Shown piece by piece: positions 2 to 38,230 of a stretch of 64,000 nucleotides of DNA. The position numbers and the translations under genes were made by a program. Numbering within the stretch: position 1 is the first letter of the stretch; every line of letters begins with the position of its first letter. Where the stretch lies: positions 4,216,001 to 4,280,000 of the forward strand of contig NZ_CP013926.1 of the NCBI RefSeq assembly GCF_001562115.1, written 5' to 3'. Source of the DNA: Alteromonas stellipolaris (GTDB lineage Bacteria; Pseudomonadota; Gammaproteobacteria; Enterobacterales; Alteromonadaceae). A model generated the notes under the pieces. It was not told where the DNA came from. It saw nothing but the letters and a program-made list of their open reading frames with translations, and made no database searches.

Positions 2-2170
2 ACCGGTCAAGAGCAAACCATGATAGGTACAGCACGGGCTGTTGCAACCGCCTTACATGAGCGTCCTGCGTTATTCGACAGCGAATCGGCTTATTTAAAA
101 GACGTTCGTCCAGGCACTGATTTATACGCGCCACCTATTCCCTATCCTATTCAACTTGATGGTGAACTAAATGATTGGCAACAAGTTGACGACTTGCTTA
201 CCCACTATGGCGCTAACGAAATTGTTGAACGCTTTACTAGCGTGCAAACTAACGACGGAACCAAAAGCGCCGCTAGCGAAAATAAGGACGCCGCTAGCGA
301 GGGCAAACAAACAAGCCTTTCATTCGAACATATGGTGGGCCGATATGATCAGTTCCTGTATGCCATGTTCAACGTTACCGACGATACCTTGTTGTGGCGA
401 CAGGAAAATAGTTTAAGTGTTGAACGAGGCGACCATTTACTCATTGGTATGCAAACCCCAGCAGGTGATTTAGCACGATATGTGGTTGCCCCCTATGAGA
501 GTGGCTGGGTAAATGCGTTTAAATTAGCAGAGTCTGGCGCGACTAATCGTGCGGTGGAAAATGCGTTAAGTATTCAAGGGCGCTGGCAAGAAACCGCTGC
601 TGGCTACAACATTGAACTTCGCTTTCCCCTCTCCATGACCTCGGGTGCACTCGCCTTTGCCATTGTTGACGTAGACGACCCGGTAACAAGGCAGAAGCGC
701 TATGCTATTGGTACCGCCAACACGAATAACATTGATGAACTAGGCACGGTAGTAACACCGTCACCAGAAATTGAGCGCATATTAGCAGGACTAAAATATG
801 CCGACTCCCGCGTATGGGTAATAGACAATCATAAGCGGGTATTGGCGCGAGCAGGTGATATACAAACGGCTTCAGGGCTAAATACTGCCAAGCGAGAAGC
901 AAGCGAAAACCTGATATGGCGCTGGGTAGAAACCCATTGGTTACTGCCCTTGTATTACCATATTCTCACTAAGCCACCCGCTGATTTTGTAGATGAACTA
1001 GAGGATGCCTATGCATTGGCGGGCCGAGACATTGGTTTAGCCCTTAACGGTCAACCAGATTCATTATGGCGCTTAACGCCAGATAACAAAGCCGTGGTTG
1101 TGTCTGCCGCTTACCCTATTTTTATTGAGGGTGCGGTAATGGGTGCAGTGGTTGTAGAGCAAACCACTAACGGTATACGCACATTAAGAAACCGCGCTTT
1201 AGAGCAGCTTTTTCATGTTATTTTGGCGGTAATGATACTAGGTACCCTAGGCTTATTGCTTTTCGCCAGCAGAATATCCAACCGTATCAGGCGACTTCGA
1301 GATAACACCGAAGCCATTATTGATGCCAATGGGAAGATTGTCGGTAAATTACCTGTTGCCAAAGAGGGTGATGAAATTGGCGATTTGTCGCGGGCGTTTT
1401 CCGATGTTTTATTGCGATTGCAGCAATACAACTCCTATTTAGAAAACATGGCTTCTCGGCTTTCTCATGAACTTAGAACCCCTATCGCCGTGGTAAAGTC
1501 ATCACTTGACGCCTTGTCTCAAGTGAGTGCTCAAGCCCATACCAGCGCTAGTCTAGAAGAGCAAGCAAACACGGTGGCGCAAAACAGTGCTCAGCAAGAA
1601 GTTTTCGTTCAACGTGCCCAGTCTGGTATCAGCCGTCTAAGTTCCATTTTAAATGCCATGAGTGAAGCCACCCGCTTAGAGCAAGCCATTGCGCAGGAAG
1701 ATGTGACCACCTTCAACATGATTGACGTGATTAAAGGCTGTGTGGGTGGGTATCAGCATGCTTATACCGACAGACAGTTTGCACTATCTTATTCACCAGA
1801 CGTAGCGATGCTAAAGGGCGCCCCCGATCTTATTGCGCAAATGTTCGATAAAATCATTTCTAACGCAGTAGATTTTAGTCAACCCGACAACATCATAGAT
1901 GTAGCCGTTTATGCCAAAGATAAAAGAATCATTCTCACCGTAAGCAACCCCGGCCCCCTATTGCCCGAAGGAATGAAACAACAACTCGTACAATCGATGG
2001 TATCAGTTCGCCCTGAGTCTGAGACGGCGCAATCAGCAGGCTCACCTCATCTAGGTTTGGGACTTTATATCGCTGACATCATTGTCGCCTTTCATCAAGG
2101 TACGCTCACCTTGGCCAATCGAGATGACAAATCCGGAGTGATTGTTTCCGTTAACCTGCCAAAAATCTGA
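2..2170 (+). CDS. Membrane sensor histidine kinase, 5' end cut by the window
   Basis: The reading frame is open from base 2, so the true start lies upstream; at least 722 residues are visible. The N-terminal half looks extracytoplasmic and contains a DGELNDW segment like those of family 9 carbohydrate-binding modules. A membrane helix near residue 400 (VILAVMILGTLGLLLF) leads to a HAMP-like region, then the H-box SRLSHELRTP (His near 483), an N-box (IISNAVDFS) and a glycine box (LGLGLYIADI). It should sense an envelope signal and phosphorylate a response regulator encoded outside the window. The architecture resembles kinases of the proteobacterial dedicated sortase system (PdsS-like), but that is inferred from layout and cannot be tested without the missing neighbours. 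The kinase assignment is secure. Confidence 0.9.
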   Translation, partial: TGQEQTMIGTARAVATALHERPALFDSESAYLKDVRPGTDLYAPPIPYPIQLDGELNDWQQVDDLLTHYGANEIVERFTSVQTNDGTKSAASENKDAASEGKQTSLSFEHMVGRYDQFLYAMFNVTDDTLLWRQENSLSVERGDHLLIGMQTPAGDLARYVVAPYESGWVNAFKLAESGATNRAVENALSIQGRWQETAAGYNIELRFPLSMTSGALAFAIVDVDDPVTRQKRYAIGTANTNNIDELGTVVTPSPEIERILAGLKYADSRVWVIDNHKRVLARAGDIQTASGLNTAKREASENLIWRWVETHWLLPLYYHILTKPPADFVDELEDAYALAGRDIGLALNGQPDSLWRLTPDNKAVVVSAAYPIFIEGAVMGAVVVEQTTNGIRTLRNRALEQLFHVILAVMILGTLGLLLFASRISNRIRRLRDNTEAIIDANGKIVGKLPVAKEGDEIGDLSRAFSDVLLRLQQYNSYLENMASRLSHELRTPIAVVKSSLDALSQVSAQAHTSASLEEQANTVAQNSAQQEVFVQRAQSGISRLSSILNAMSEATRLEQAIAQEDVTTFNMIDVIKGCVGGYQHAYTDRQFALSYSPDVAMLKGAPDLIAQMFDKIISNAVDFSQPDNIIDVAVYAKDKRIILTVSNPGPLLPEGMKQQLVQSMVSVRPESETAQSAGSPHLGLGLYIADIIVAFHQGTLTLANRDDKSGVIVSVNLPKI

Positions 2171-2274
2171 TGTGCTAAGTTTTTTGAGGTGGCTTACAAA
2201 CCGCCTTCTCCTTGCATTGATACCCCTCTAACGCAGACCTTTAAGTTTTCCTAAAAAATCCCTACAAAATTCGT

Positions 2275-2297
2275 GCATGAGAATTATTCTCATTAGT
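2275..2297 (+). promoter_or_regulatory. Fur box upstream of the TonB receptor
   Basis: Positions 2277-2293 form a perfect palindrome with 8-nt arms around one base (ATGAGAAT-T-ATTCTCAT). It closely matches the known Fur operator core (GATAATGATAATCATTATC type). It lies about 70 bases before the receptor start at 2361, so iron-dependent repression of the receptor and the hydroxylase behind it is inferred. The ATG inside the box is operator sequence, not the gene start. Confidence 0.8.
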
Positions 2298-2360
2298 ATT
2301 TACATTCATTTGCTGTTTCAATACACTTCGTCGCTTACACACACAGGAAAAACACACACT

Positions 2361-4655
2361 ATGAAAAATAAAACGTTAACAATAGGCGCACAAACTATTG
2401 CTGCGGCATTAGCTTTCGGACACGGCGGCGCACTTGCACAAACCCAAGAAACTGAAATCTGCAAGGATAAAACAGAAGCTGAATGTAAAGCGCAACAAGA
2501 CGAAATTGAACTGATCCGTATCCACGGTGTTCAACAGTCTATCTATCGCTATGACAAATCTGGCGATCCTCGTCGTTTAGCTGACCTTGTTGATACACCA
2601 CAAACCATTAGTGTTCTTACACAAGACCAAATTCAAGAAAGTGGTAAAACTGACCTTAAAGATATTCTTGCTGCTCAAGCCGGTGTAACTCTTGGTACAG
2701 GTGAGAATGGTAATGCTTTTGGTGACCGCTATGTAATACGTGGCCACGAAGCACGCAGCGACGTGTTTGTTGATGGTTTGCGTGACCCAGGTATGACTAC
2801 CCGTGAAAGTTTTGCCACTGAGCGCGTTGAAATTACTAAAGGCCCTAGTTCAACATTTGCAGGCCGTGGTTCTTCAGGTGGTGCGGTAAACAGCATTACG
2901 AAAAAAGCCTCTACTAGCTATAACTTTGGTCGTGTTGATGCTGCCATTGGTACCGACGAGCACACCCGCTTAACTGTAGATTTGAATAAAACGCTAACGG
3001 AAAACAGTGCAATTCGTGTTAACGCACTAACGTCTCAAGAAGACAAGCCGGGTCGTGAAGGCATTGAACGTGGCCGTGATGGTGTTCAACTTTCTTACGT
3101 ACTAAACCCAAACGACAGACTGTCTTTCATTGGTGATGTTTATTACCTTAATGCAGAAGATAAGCCTGATTTAGGTAGCTACTACGACCGTGATGCGGGT
3201 TATCCGTTAGAAGATATTCCTGTTTATGCACAAGATGATGACTTCCAAAACTCAGAAGTCACTACCTTTACCTTCCGTACCGAATACGAAATTAGCGACA
3301 ATGTTCGTTTCTACAACGCGACTCGTGCAGGTAACACTGAAAACGAATACGTAACAACCGGTATGAGTGCGACAACCCGTGATGATTCTGATGAAACAGC
3401 ACCAGGTGCAGATACGCTTCGACTTAGCACGCACCAAGGCTGGCAAGAAGTAGATTACTTCACGACTCAATTTAACCTTTTCTGGGACACTTCATTTGCA
3501 GGCTTAGATCACCGTTTAGTATTTGGTTTTGAGTACAGCGATGAGTCGGTTGATAACGGTGTTTTCAATATTGAAAACCTAAATACCAACTGTGCAATTG
3601 GTGGTCGTCGTGGCGTATCACAAAGCTACTGTATTGTTGATGGTGATGGAAACCTTATCGATAACATCGGTTCACTGATGGACAGAACCATTGAACGTGG
3701 TGATGAAGATGCCCTTTTCGATATTGAAACCTATGCAATTTACGCCATGGATACCTTTGCGTTAACTGATAAGTTAGACGTGTTCTTCGGCCTACGTATG
3801 GACAGCTACGATTACAGCAACCAAACAAGTAACGACCTTTATGAGTTCTCTGATGAGTTGTTTAACGGTCATTTAGGTTTAGTATATGACATTACTGAAC
3901 ACGGTAATGTATACGCGTCTTACAGCACAGCTACGAACATCAATGGCGGCGAGTCTGACCTTGGTGCAAACTGTGGTTACGGTGGCCTATGTGGCACACC
4001 TGAACAAGCTGCACAAGCCGATCCAGAGCATGTTGAAAACATCGAAATTGGTACAAAATGGATGCTATTTGATGAGAATTTGATGGCAAATGCGTCAATT
4101 TTCCGTATTACGAAAAGCGATGTTCATGAAAGTATCGGTGAAGATGACTACTCAACTATTGGTACATTGAACACGGGTGAAAACCGTGTTGAAGGTGTTG
4201 AATTTGGTGTTAGCGGTGATATTACTGAGAAGTTCAGTGTTCAAGCATCTGCCGCCTTCATGGACTCAGAAGTACTAGACTCTTTCACCGAATCTAACAT
4301 TGGCCTTGCGTTAAGTAACTTTGCAGACGAAAGCTTCTACCTACAACTGCGTTATCAACCAAATGAGAAGTTCGCTTTCGGTGGTGACTACACGTATAAG
4401 TCTGAAATGTTTGGTGGTCAGCCTGACACAGCAGCGGGTTACGATGCTGATACTGGCGAATACTCAATAGTTGTTCCTGATTATCAAGTATTCAACTTGT
4501 TTGCTAACTACTATGCATCTGAAAAACTAACGTTCCGTGTTAACATCGGTAACTTGTTTGATGAAGAATACTGGACTGCAGCTTATCGCTCTGGTGCCTT
4601 CATGTACATCGGTGACGGCCGTAATGTGACCGGTACGGTAAACTACGAGTTCTAA
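2361..4655 (+). CDS. TonB-dependent siderophore receptor (Fiu/PiuA-like)
   Basis: This 764-residue outer-membrane receptor should import ferric siderophores, probably catecholates, using TonB energy. The start at 2361 is preferred over an in-frame ATG at 2277 because the latter lies inside the Fur box; 2361 has AGGAAA upstream and opens a signal peptide (MKNKTLTIGAQTIAAALAFG, cleavage near ALAQ). A plug domain follows (DTPQTISVLTQDQIQESG, VFVDGLRD, VEITKGPSS, GRGSSGGAVN), then a long beta-barrel ending NVTGTVNYEF with the terminal Phe usual for outer-membrane proteins. The PiuC/YbiX-type hydroxylase 26 bases downstream mirrors the fiu-ybiX and piuA-piuC pairs of other gammaproteobacteria, which supports the substrate inference. 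The exact siderophore is unknown. Confidence 0.92.
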   Translation: MKNKTLTIGAQTIAAALAFGHGGALAQTQETEICKDKTEAECKAQQDEIELIRIHGVQQSIYRYDKSGDPRRLADLVDTPQTISVLTQDQIQESGKTDLKDILAAQAGVTLGTGENGNAFGDRYVIRGHEARSDVFVDGLRDPGMTTRESFATERVEITKGPSSTFAGRGSSGGAVNSITKKASTSYNFGRVDAAIGTDEHTRLTVDLNKTLTENSAIRVNALTSQEDKPGREGIERGRDGVQLSYVLNPNDRLSFIGDVYYLNAEDKPDLGSYYDRDAGYPLEDIPVYAQDDDFQNSEVTTFTFRTEYEISDNVRFYNATRAGNTENEYVTTGMSATTRDDSDETAPGADTLRLSTHQGWQEVDYFTTQFNLFWDTSFAGLDHRLVFGFEYSDESVDNGVFNIENLNTNCAIGGRRGVSQSYCIVDGDGNLIDNIGSLMDRTIERGDEDALFDIETYAIYAMDTFALTDKLDVFFGLRMDSYDYSNQTSNDLYEFSDELFNGHLGLVYDITEHGNVYASYSTATNINGGESDLGANCGYGGLCGTPEQAAQADPEHVENIEIGTKWMLFDENLMANASIFRITKSDVHESIGEDDYSTIGTLNTGENRVEGVEFGVSGDITEKFSVQASAAFMDSEVLDSFTESNIGLALSNFADESFYLQLRYQPNEKFAFGGDYTYKSEMFGGQPDTAAGYDADTGEYSIVVPDYQVFNLFANYYASEKLTFRVNIGNLFDEEYWTAAYRSGAFMYIGDGRNVTGTVNYEF

Positions 4656-34221: not shown

Positions 34222-34252
34222 AAGGCTGGTGGTTTAAAAAACCACCAGCCTT
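34222..34252 (-). terminator. Attenuator/terminator between rplL and rpoB
   Basis: A 14-bp stem (34222-34235 with 34239-34252) followed by a T tract on the minus strand lies between rplL (stop 34285) and rpoB. The position matches the known partial terminator that lowers rpoBC transcription relative to ribosomal protein genes. rpoB must be reached by read-through or by another promoter. Confidence 0.85.
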
Positions 34253-34284
34253 GCCGTCTCAGGCAAATAATCTAAACAAATAGA

Positions 34285-34659
34285 TTACTTAACTTCAACT
34301 TCAGCACCAGCTTCAGTTAGCTGTGCTTTAAGTTCTTCAGCTTCTTCTTTGCTTACGCCTTCTTTGATAGCTTTAGGAGCAGATTCAACTACTTCTTTAG
34401 CTTCTTTAAGACCTAGGCCAGTCGCTGCGCGAACTGCTTTGATTACTGCAACTTTGTTTGCGCCGAATGAAGTCATTACAACGTCAAACTCAGTCTTTTC
34501 TTCAACTGCTGCTGCTTCGCCCGCTGCTGGACCAGCTACAGCTACTGCTGCAGATGCGTCAACACCGAATTTTTCTTCAGCTGCTTCGATTAGCTCAACC
34601 AATTCCATAACTGGCATTTCAGCAATCGCGTTTAAGATATCTTCTTTAGTTAGAGCCAT
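34285..34659 (-). CDS. rplL: 50S ribosomal protein L7/L12
   Basis: The 124-residue stalk protein has the N-terminal dimerisation helix ([21 protein letters not shown]), an Ala-rich hinge ([18 protein letters not shown]) and the C-terminal factor-binding domain ([20 protein letters not shown], then [13 protein letters not shown]). It follows rplJ by 59 bases. Confidence 0.98.
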
Positions 34660-36758: not shown

Positions 36759-36787
36759 ATTATATAAGGTGTGCAAATGGTATGCAA
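36759..36787 (-). promoter_or_regulatory. Strong sigma-70 promoter of rplK operon
   Basis: On the minus strand TTGCAT (36782-36787) and a perfect TATAAT (36759-36764) are separated by 17 bases, about 90 bases upstream of rplK. A GC-rich GCGCGCCC follows the -10 box, resembling the discriminator of stringently controlled promoters. Confidence 0.8.
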
Positions 36788-36901: not shown

Positions 36902-37040
36902 ATGGAGTTACTTACACAAGAAGACATCAACTGCGTATCAGGTGGGGATGGATGGGATGTCGCCTCAGGCGCACTTACAGGGGGGAGGTATAGGAGCTGC
37001 TGATGCAATATCAGACTATGACGATACAATGGATGAATAA
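36902..37040 (+). pseudogene. Double-glycine-leader bacteriocin-like peptide, frameshifted at a G run
   Basis: As written the frame gives 33 residues: MELLTQEDINCVSGG followed by DGWDVASGALTGGRYRSC and a stop at 37003. The first part is a typical double-glycine leader (LTxEDI..VSGG) of class II bacteriocins and microcins. The frame breaks at six G (36980-36985). Removing one G gives a 45-residue peptide whose mature part is Gly/Ala-rich then acidic (GGGIGAADAISDYDD) and stops at 37040, directly before the next GTG. GGAG lies 8 bases before the ATG. It is either a real phase-variable or decayed gene or a base-calling error in the homopolymer. No exporter gene is adjacent. Confidence 0.7.
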
Positions 37041-37202
37041 GTGAATTTATCACCTATTCTAAGGCTTTATTTGGCTTGTACCATATTGAGCCTCTTCTCA
37101 TTGAGTGCGTTTATTGCAAATAATAGTTTTATACTACTATTTAATCATTTGGGCGTAGCTGTAATTCTGTGGGTTCGATTAATTCGCCTCAATTGCCTAT
37201 GA
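37041..37202 (+). CDS. Small two-helix membrane protein, first of a coupled pair
   Basis: A GTG directly after the restored stop of the peptide gene opens 53 codons ending at 37202. Two hydrophobic stretches are visible (LYLACTILSLFSLSAFIA; FILLFNHLGVAVILWV) with basic residues at the end (RLIRLNCL). The stop overlaps the next start as ATGA. I know no family for it. Small membrane proteins beside bacteriocin precursors are often immunity proteins, which is the inferred role. The non-ATG start and weak ribosome site leave doubt. Confidence 0.5.
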   Translation: MNLSPILRLYLACTILSLFSLSAFIANNSFILLFNHLGVAVILWVRLIRLNCL

Positions 37203-37378
37203 GCAAACTCGAATATTTTAACGTTGGCCGCATACTCGTACCAACGAGCTTATTTATCACAACGCTATCTTTTGGGTTATTGTTTCTCTATGAATATAAA
37301 TGGTGTCTGATAGCGGCCGCAACGGGTACGTTTATTATAAACTACCGATTCCCTTTTTATCTAAAAACCAAACGGTAA
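37199..37378 (+). CDS. Small two-helix membrane protein, second of a coupled pair
   Basis: The start at 37199 overlaps the preceding stop by ATGA, a sign of translational coupling, and is preferred to a GTG at 37169. The 59-residue product has two hydrophobic segments (VPTSLFITTLSFGLLFLY; WCLIAAATGTFII) separated by EYK and a basic tail (YLKTKR). Both sit in the inner membrane by prediction. No family is recognised; an immunity or accessory role with the peptide upstream is inferred. Confidence 0.55.
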   Translation: MSKLEYFNVGRILVPTSLFITTLSFGLLFLYEYKWCLIAAATGTFIINYRFPFYLKTKR

Positions 37379-37380
37379 GA

Positions 37381-37556
37381 ATGTTCATTACAGACCTTAC
37401 GATTCCAAAGTATGAATTGAACATCTAGATTGAAATTTAAAGCTCAAATTTTGGCAAGCCATTCGTGATGCGGCAAACATTAAGCCTTGGGTAGCAGATC
37501 TTATACTGTTTATTTTCATATTCCTGGCAACCTTCTCAGGCCATTTCATCTTATAG
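37381..37556 (+). pseudogene. Possible decayed third membrane gene of the small cluster
   Basis: Two bases after the preceding stop codon, an ATG opens only 15 codons (MFITDLTIPKYELNI, stop at 37428). A different frame, open from 37434 to 37556 without a start codon, encodes a soluble segment (FWQAIRDAANIKPWV) and one hydrophobic helix (ADLILFIFIFLATFSG). More than one lesion would be needed to join them. It may be a remnant or chance. Confidence 0.3.
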
Positions 37557-37639
37557 CCTCAAAATGCCTATGCCTACATCTTCATCCACTGTTGAAACAA
37601 GGGCCCGAGCGAGTCTTTCACTCTTGAATTTCAGACATA

Positions 37640-37665
37640 AAAAAAGACGGTAACCCGTCTTTTTT
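37640..37665. terminator. Bidirectional Rho-independent terminator between nusG and the small cluster
   Basis: GACGG and CCGTC with flanking A6 and T6 tracts form an 11-bp stem around TAAC. It starts 20 bases past the nusG stop on the minus strand and also closes the plus-strand cluster. It makes secE-nusG a unit separate from rplK. Confidence 0.9.
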
Positions 37666-37684
37666 CTATGGTAAGTAGCTAGGA

Positions 37685-38230
37685 TTAACCCTTTTCTACC
37701 TGACCAAATTCTAAATCTACCGGTGTAGAACGACCGAAGATAAGTACCGACACTTTTACGCGGCTCTTTTCGTAGTCTACTTCTTCTACCACACCGTTGA
37801 AGTCGGCAAATGGACCGTCTGTAACGCGAACCACTTCGCCTGGCTCGAACAATGTCTTCGGCTTAGGCTTATCAACTGACTCTTCAAGACGGTTAAGAAT
37901 TGCGTCTGCTTCTTTTTGGGTAATTGGCATTGGGCGATCAGAAGTACCACCGATGAAACCAAGTACACGAGGAACGCTTTTCACTAAGTGCCAAGATTCT
38001 TCGTTCATTGCCATTTCTACCAAAACGTAACCTGGGTAAAACTTACGCTCAGATTTGCGCTTTTGGCCAGCGCGCATTTCTACAACTTCTTCAGTCGGAA
38101 CTAGAATCTGACCAAAGTGCTCTTCCATGCCATGCATCTTAATATATTCAAGTAGCGTTTTTTGAACGCGACCTTCGTACTGAGAATATGCTTGTACTAC
38201 GTACCATCTTTTTTTAATTTCTTCAGACAT
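37685..38230 (-). CDS. nusG: Transcription elongation/termination factor NusG
   Basis: The 181-residue protein has the NGN domain ([32 protein letters not shown]) and a C-terminal KOW domain ([19 protein letters not shown]). It binds RNA polymerase, Rho and S10. It lies 3 bases after secE. Unusually, rplK does not follow directly: about 1.0 kb with plus-strand small ORFs intervenes. Confidence 0.97.

Follow-up and report, generated by a model that had tools for sequence, protein, structure and literature searches.

A probable remnant of a two-peptide double-glycine bacteriocin operon between nusG and rplK in Alteromonas stellipolaris

The small open reading frames (ORFs) between rplK and nusG in Alteromonas stellipolaris very probably constitute the dead remnant of a bacteriocin operon encoding two peptides with double-glycine (GG) leaders, similar to class II microcins and resembling class IIb bacteriocins. 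The locus was analyzed within a 64,000-nucleotide stretch of contig NZ_CP013926.1 (the window). This reading was supported by the intact operon found in related species, the lesions revealed by alignment, and the confinement of the membrane protein families to the same gap. The original prediction had proposed a GG peptide toxin accompanied by small membrane immunity proteins. The kind of system was borne out by intact homologous clusters and an exporter, but its anatomy and intact state were not, as two peptides, membrane proteins of 112 and 61–66 aa, and four damaged genes were found.

In the window, the ATG at 36902 (plus strand) opens MELLTQEDINCVSGG..., a GG leader, and the frame breaks after a run of six G at 36980–36985. 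A GTG at 37041 lies immediately behind the TAA of another frame and starts a 53-aa ORF (37041–37202), which is overlapped through ATGA by a 59-aa ORF beginning at the ATG at 37199. All small ORFs of the cluster are located on the strand opposite to rplK and nusG. The GG-leader ORF, the GTG behind the stop, the ATGA overlap, and the opposite strand had been described in the original prediction, and all were confirmed on the sequence.

Intact operons were located in the same gap of four relatives, namely, Alteromonas sp. MMG017 (G077), IB21 (G030), ALT199 (G017), and KUL42 (G035). The gene order was P1 (71 aa), P2 (approximately 81 aa), a 112-aa protein (110–114 aa), and a 61–66-aa protein (63 aa in G077), with P1 and P2 adjacent and both carrying GG leaders. 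The leader of P1 was 15 residues long and that of P2 was approximately 19, depending on the start, while the GA-type peptide of G078 had a leader of 18 residues. In G077, P1 and P2 contained 4 and 10 GxxxG motifs, respectively, with overlaps counted, and the net charges of the precursors were −9 and −10. The GxxxG motif is a trait of class IIb bacteriocins. Searches of the protein database returned 11 matches for P1, six for P2, and 20 for the 112-aa protein, and the metagenomes contained the intact P0004 (71 aa, with the CVSGG of the window) and P0018 (112 aa). G061 and G082 harbored, at a second and unlinked locus, a P1-like sequence (E values of 6e-19 and 4.8e-19), a weaker P2-like sequence, and a 134-aa ORF directly downstream. 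As the P1-like and P2-like sequences stood together at this second locus, the peptide pair appears to recur as a unit. No match was found in 72,556 plasmid records, whether the gap served as a DNA query or P0004 and the 112-aa protein served as protein queries.

Four lesions were placed by aligning the window with G077, and four of the four cluster genes were damaged in this genome. A 313-base deletion took out the remainder of P1 along with the larger part of P2, so that ...GGAGC of P1 now abuts TGCTGATGC of P2. The junction at 36997/36998 (compared with L048) shows a two-base GC microhomology and is in register, the P1 and P2 genes being in different frames. The P1 head, comprising the leader and the start of the mature peptide, thus spans 36902–36997, and the P2 tail, ending in ...SDYDDTMDE and a stop, was aligned to 36998–37040 (both plus strand). 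The second lesion is the gain of one G in a run of five G, which breaks the frame of the P1 head at 36980–36985. With the deletion fusion and this frameshift, no intact precursor gene is left; of the two leaders, only that of P1 is retained. The 45-residue peptide obtained by restoring the frame, which had been taken for a product of the cluster, is a chimera of the P1 head and the P2 tail. The third lesion lies in the gene for the 112-aa membrane protein, a candidate immunity protein with four predicted helices (37041–37378, plus strand), which is split by one missing base at 37185/37186. The supposed 53- and 59-residue proteins are therefore halves of one gene that is a single frame in relatives; the ATGA overlap between them exists, but it is a by-product of the frameshift and does not join separate genes. 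The fourth lesion, a deletion of approximately 235 bases relative to G077, took away the beginning of the 63-aa membrane protein gene, the candidate second immunity gene, including its start and the first helix. Some of these 235 bases belong to a spacer, which in G030, G017, and G035 is shorter than in G077, but all four relatives possess the start of the gene. What remains of this fourth gene is its 3′ portion (37437–37556, plus strand), which matched the family profile at positions 25–63 only, as a 39-residue stub (E 4.2e-10).

The two membrane proteins adjoin the peptides in the relatives, and both are broken in the window. The 53-aa piece matched 9 of 60 genomes at E values up to 0.1; five matches reached 2.5e-6 or better (the window genome, G013, G017, G030, and G035) and four were weak. 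In G013, G017, G030, and G035, the match sits in a single open frame of 110–114 residues. The 59-aa piece matched four of the 60 genomes, the window genome and three others. A profile of the 112-aa protein found 6 of 59 genomes, every one at the nusG–rplK gap, and only the window genome gave two partial matches, covering positions 2–52 and 49–112 of 112. Likewise, 11 of 59 genomes contained the 63-aa family, which was not detected outside this gap. The original prediction recognized no described family for the membrane proteins, and none of Pfam or NCBIfam was matched at E 0.1 by the 112- and 63-aa proteins of G077. The predicted structure of the 112-aa protein comprises four helices (pLDDT 83.7). 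A comparison of this model with the PDB gave no match within the E limit of 0.001, the best value being 0.34; therefore, the fold was uninformative on the mechanism of the protein.

Substitutions were then counted by codon position, pairwise and unpolarized. Between G030 and G017, they were distributed as 8/2/21 in P1 (third-position excess, p 9.4e-5) and 4/1/27 in P2 (p 3.8e-9), with 8 nonsynonymous and 18 synonymous codons in P1 and 5 and 25 in P2. P1 and P2 are under purifying selection between these two relatives and behave as real genes. The 112-aa gene showed 3/2/9 between G013 and G017 (p 0.017), and nusG showed 3/1/8 between the window and G077 (p 0.019). Between the window and G077, the 112-aa gene showed 6/5/5 (p 0.66), with 10 nonsynonymous and 3 synonymous codons, although these are only 16 substitutions; the window copy looks free to drift. 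The original prediction had expected homologues with conserved reading frames and substitutions respecting codon position. The former were found, whereas the latter did not hold for the 112-aa gene of the window. As a separate observation, the 112-aa candidate immunity protein diverges far faster than its companion peptides, with 58 nonsynonymous and 19 synonymous codons between G030 and G017 (positions 50/27/52). A simple matched co-evolution with the peptides would not predict this, and the observation counts against the bacteriocin–immunity reading.

These data also bear on two readings in which the locus would still function. In one of them, a working mini-cluster would encode one short GG peptide, of 33 residues or of 45 residues by slippage on the G run, with two small membrane immunity proteins. 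The leader, the start codon, and a ribosome-binding-like GGAG are intact by eye, the P1–P2 deletion is in register, and the G run could slip. However, the 53- and 59-aa ORFs are one gene in five relatives, the codon bias of the 112-aa gene is lost, and the 63-aa gene has no start, making this reading highly improbable. A working three-gene cluster was rejected because every gene is damaged. In the other, the frameshifts would be sequencing errors within a functional fused-peptide cluster. Single-base changes of this type are errors that assemblies can make, and both single-base changes of the window are of the error-prone type; they may be sequencing errors, but the two deletions cannot be explained in this way. 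Sequencing error was accordingly rejected as the cause of the whole locus. Moreover, the lost start of the 63-aa gene and the absent codon bias of the 112-aa gene are independent of those two bases, and a functional fused-peptide cluster is thus scarcely credible.

For the decayed bacteriocin operon, an export system was sought outside the cluster. The original prediction had pointed to C39-peptidase exporters elsewhere in the genome, and a C39 ABC exporter of 739 aa (L113) was found at approximately 4.174 Mb, unlinked to the cluster and approximately 79 kb from it. Its C39 domain exceeded the Pfam cut-off (E 3e-34), and the N-terminal domain contains, by eye, a QTEAAECG cysteine motif, HFVV, and HDP, which form a catalytic-looking Cys/His/Asp triad. 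A 416-aa HlyD-like ORF is its neighbor. Both remained under the cut-offs of their best NCBIfam families, scoring 461.8 against 853.3 and 115.2 against 208.65, respectively. Two further C39 matches of this genome were not retained as exporters, namely, L114, an LssB-type secretion ABC protein, and L115, a PA2778-type peptidase. A simple motif search for GG-leader ORFs of at least 35 aa beside L113 listed two, neither of which was convincing.

In the intact relatives, cleavage behind the GG would mature P1 and P2, and a C39 ABC exporter with its HlyD partner, comparable to the L113 pair, would carry them out of the cell. The inner membrane of related bacteria would be the joint target of the two peptides, attacked by way of their GxxxG helices, and the producer would be protected by the 112- and 63-aa membrane proteins. 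In the window, the toxin pair collapsed through the deletion, P1 head to P2 tail, and the base gain in the G run, the base loss in the 112-aa gene, and the deletion of the 63-aa start ended coding, perhaps in this order.

Judged by the definition in PMC10233263, the systems of the intact relatives resemble class II microcins. Similar to the MccV system (CvaC, Cvi, CvaB, and CvaA), they have anionic peptides with GG or GA leaders of approximately 15–18 residues, adjacent small membrane immunity candidates, and, in the genome, a C39 ABC exporter with an HlyD-type partner (PMC10233263). Unlike those systems, two tandem peptides and two membrane proteins are present, the exporter is approximately 79 kb away, no named family was matched above its cut-off, and the window copy is broken. 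The class IIb bacteriocins offer a second comparison: in the variable bacteriocin-immunity region of pneumococci, BlpIJ with blpU4/5 likewise has two neighboring GG-leader peptides with two immunity-type genes behind them (PMC6422914). In contrast to class IIb of Gram-positive bacteria, the host here is Gram-negative, no pheromone or transporter genes lie within the gap, and no sequence family is shared above cut-off. P2 and the NGA peptide of G029 scored 20.8 and 20.0 bits with PF10439 (Bacteriocin_IIc), not reaching the gathering cut-off of 27.1; the G029 peptide also stayed below the cut-off of TIGR03949 (class IIb lactobin A/cerein 7B family; 15.3 versus 21.5). P1 matched no family of Pfam or NCBIfam.

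A marine Gram-negative GG-leader bacteriocin locus with an exporter is described for a plasmid of Aliivibrio wodanis (PMC4462113). In the text available from an Enterobacterales class II microcin survey, the words "alteromonad" and "two-peptide" are both absent (PMC9746304). For Alteromonas sp. V450, the available text mentions predicted antiSMASH clusters "such as bacteriocin" without detail (PMC5289672). In the open-licence literature, no account of the Alteromonas nusG–rplK locus and no description of a GG bacteriocin in Alteromonas were found, an earlier one elsewhere being possible, and among the matches listed for Alteromonas microcins, no title pointed to such a system. The intact relatives are candidates for a Gram-negative two-peptide GG bacteriocin family that is undescribed in the literature searched, and the window copy is interpreted as a pseudogene of that family.

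The setting of the cluster beside essential genes was also evaluated. The gap is bordered on the left by rplK (L11; 36240–36668, minus strand), an ORF used as an anchor, and on the right by a terminator-like hairpin of nusG (37632–37672, minus strand; −16.5 kcal/mol, z −5.5), followed by the nusG ORF (37685–38230, minus strand). In the window, the gap measures approximately 1,019 bases, with the last sense codon of nusG taken as its limit. A promoter-like element, TTGCAT-17-TATAAT followed by GCGCGCCC (36759–36787, minus strand), lies 96 bases upstream of the rplK ATG. An exact TATAAT at 95–96 bases before rplK was present in 44 of 56 genomes, in small and large gaps alike, and absent in 12. 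Seen from rplK, the inserted material of the window lies beyond this element. A simple scan listed 4 promoter-like sites against 3.2 expected, which is the chance level, and 3 terminator-like sites against 1.1; neither the rplK TATAAT element nor the nusG hairpin was among them. In E. coli, rplK has a promoter of its own. The cluster had been placed inside the gap of an essential operon. Judging from the nusG hairpin on one side and the conserved promoter-like element on the other, insertions would instead fall between two transcription units, with a putative promoter serving rplK. Such a position suggests a possible reason for the tolerance of insertions beside essential genes. Near this region, a match to the Rfam sRNA P26 was observed at 34223–34279 (42.5 bits versus a gathering score of 36), just downstream of the ORF at 34285–34659, which we take to be rplL.

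The gap was compared across Alteromonas using one genome per species. nusG was found in 57 of 59 genomes (not in G034 and G079), and the gap was measurable in 56; G014 was left out because no rplK occurred within the approximately 16.6 kb examined. Gap lengths ranged from 207 to 10,283 bases, with 19 genomes below 300 bases, 2 at 300–600 bases, and 35 at 600 bases or more. In Alteromonas, the presumed adjacency of nusG and rplK thus held for only 19 of 56 measured species, those with gaps below 300 bases.

The system was present in the gap of 11 of the 59 genomes, in states ranging from intact through swapped and peptide-deleted to immunity-only and dead. Besides the four genomes with the intact two-peptide cluster and the window genome with the dead one, G078, G013, and G029 carry a different single-peptide cluster whose leader ends in SGA or NGA, and G013 additionally retains a 112-aa gene without P1 and P2. 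In G010, the single-peptide cluster has an internal in-frame deletion leaving 46 aa, and in G033, it has lost the leader and the end of its 63-aa gene is shifted. In G019, a 63-aa gene was present with no GG peptide seen. The search for C39 exporters gave matches at 9.6e-32 or better in 57 genomes, a best E of 4.9e-6 in G019, and none in G006. G019, a single case, therefore combines no strong exporter match and no peptide with a retained immunity-type gene. In the tree of the flanks, G000, G077, G078, G010, and G033 are tight neighbors with different gap contents; in G081, the next neighbor, the gap is empty and measures 217 bases. Five very close species thus differ in what this one gap holds: the two-peptide cluster is intact in one and dead in another, the single-peptide cluster is intact in a third, and it carries different deletions in the remaining two. 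Such clusters come, go, and replace one another at the nusG–rplK gap, and the mini-cluster of the window may be viewed as one step of an arms race. The genus is marine and easy to grow, and the gap is a ready place to seek more such clusters.

The same operon could have decayed from one whose intact peptides were signals or biofilm factors, as with the GG-motif EbfG proteins of Synechococcus; GG proteins required for biofilm development are known (PMC4997328), and the peptides are better conserved here than the membrane proteins. The peptide-deleted and immunity-only states (G010, G033, G013, and G019) and the differing cassettes of sister species, however, resemble bacteriocin–immunity dynamics, and the two-peptide layout is rich in GxxxG. 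A role in signaling or biofilm formation was accordingly considered unlikely, and a bacteriocin remains the preferred reading of the decayed operon.

Fusions of P1 and P2 were seen three times with different breakpoints, in the window, P0010 (54 aa), and P0035 (51 aa), although P0010 and P0035 each derive from one short contig (900 and 905 bases), where a fault of metagenome assembly is possible. P0010 and P0035 were among the protein database matches. All three fusions retain the P1 leader and the P2 tail; as out-of-frame fusions are invisible in a protein database, the in-frame state may reflect ascertainment. It is conceivable, yet quite improbable, that P1–P2 fusion goes beyond mere decay and repeatedly generates new short peptides in this Alteromonas bacteriocin hotspot, with the chimera perhaps retained for some time as an exported decoy, signal, or new single-peptide bacteriocin.

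Further GG-leader genes and other gap contents were also observed. In the distant clade of G011 (L076), gap bases 210–861 hold another GG-leader pair (VNGG and VQGG) with a small membrane ORF; by eye, these peptides are unlike the others, and G062 (L102), a relative of G011, retains a 65-aa membrane ORF that appears similar. Peptides akin to those of the single-peptide cluster occur elsewhere in the genomes of G017, G030, and G028 (L134, L135, and L136; E 1e-17 to 2e-18). Other gap cargo (L053–L069, L079, L063/L104, and others), judged by eye from translations, includes diguanylate cyclase and H-NOX-like genes, an iron-type ABC operon in 7 genomes, and MscS-like, beta-lactamase-like, and TonB/halogenase-like genes. 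Two large lipoprotein-like proteins of 708 and 902 aa, related to each other, lie in the gap of two species on opposite strands (L048, bases 1603–3729; L087 of G019, bases 574–3282).
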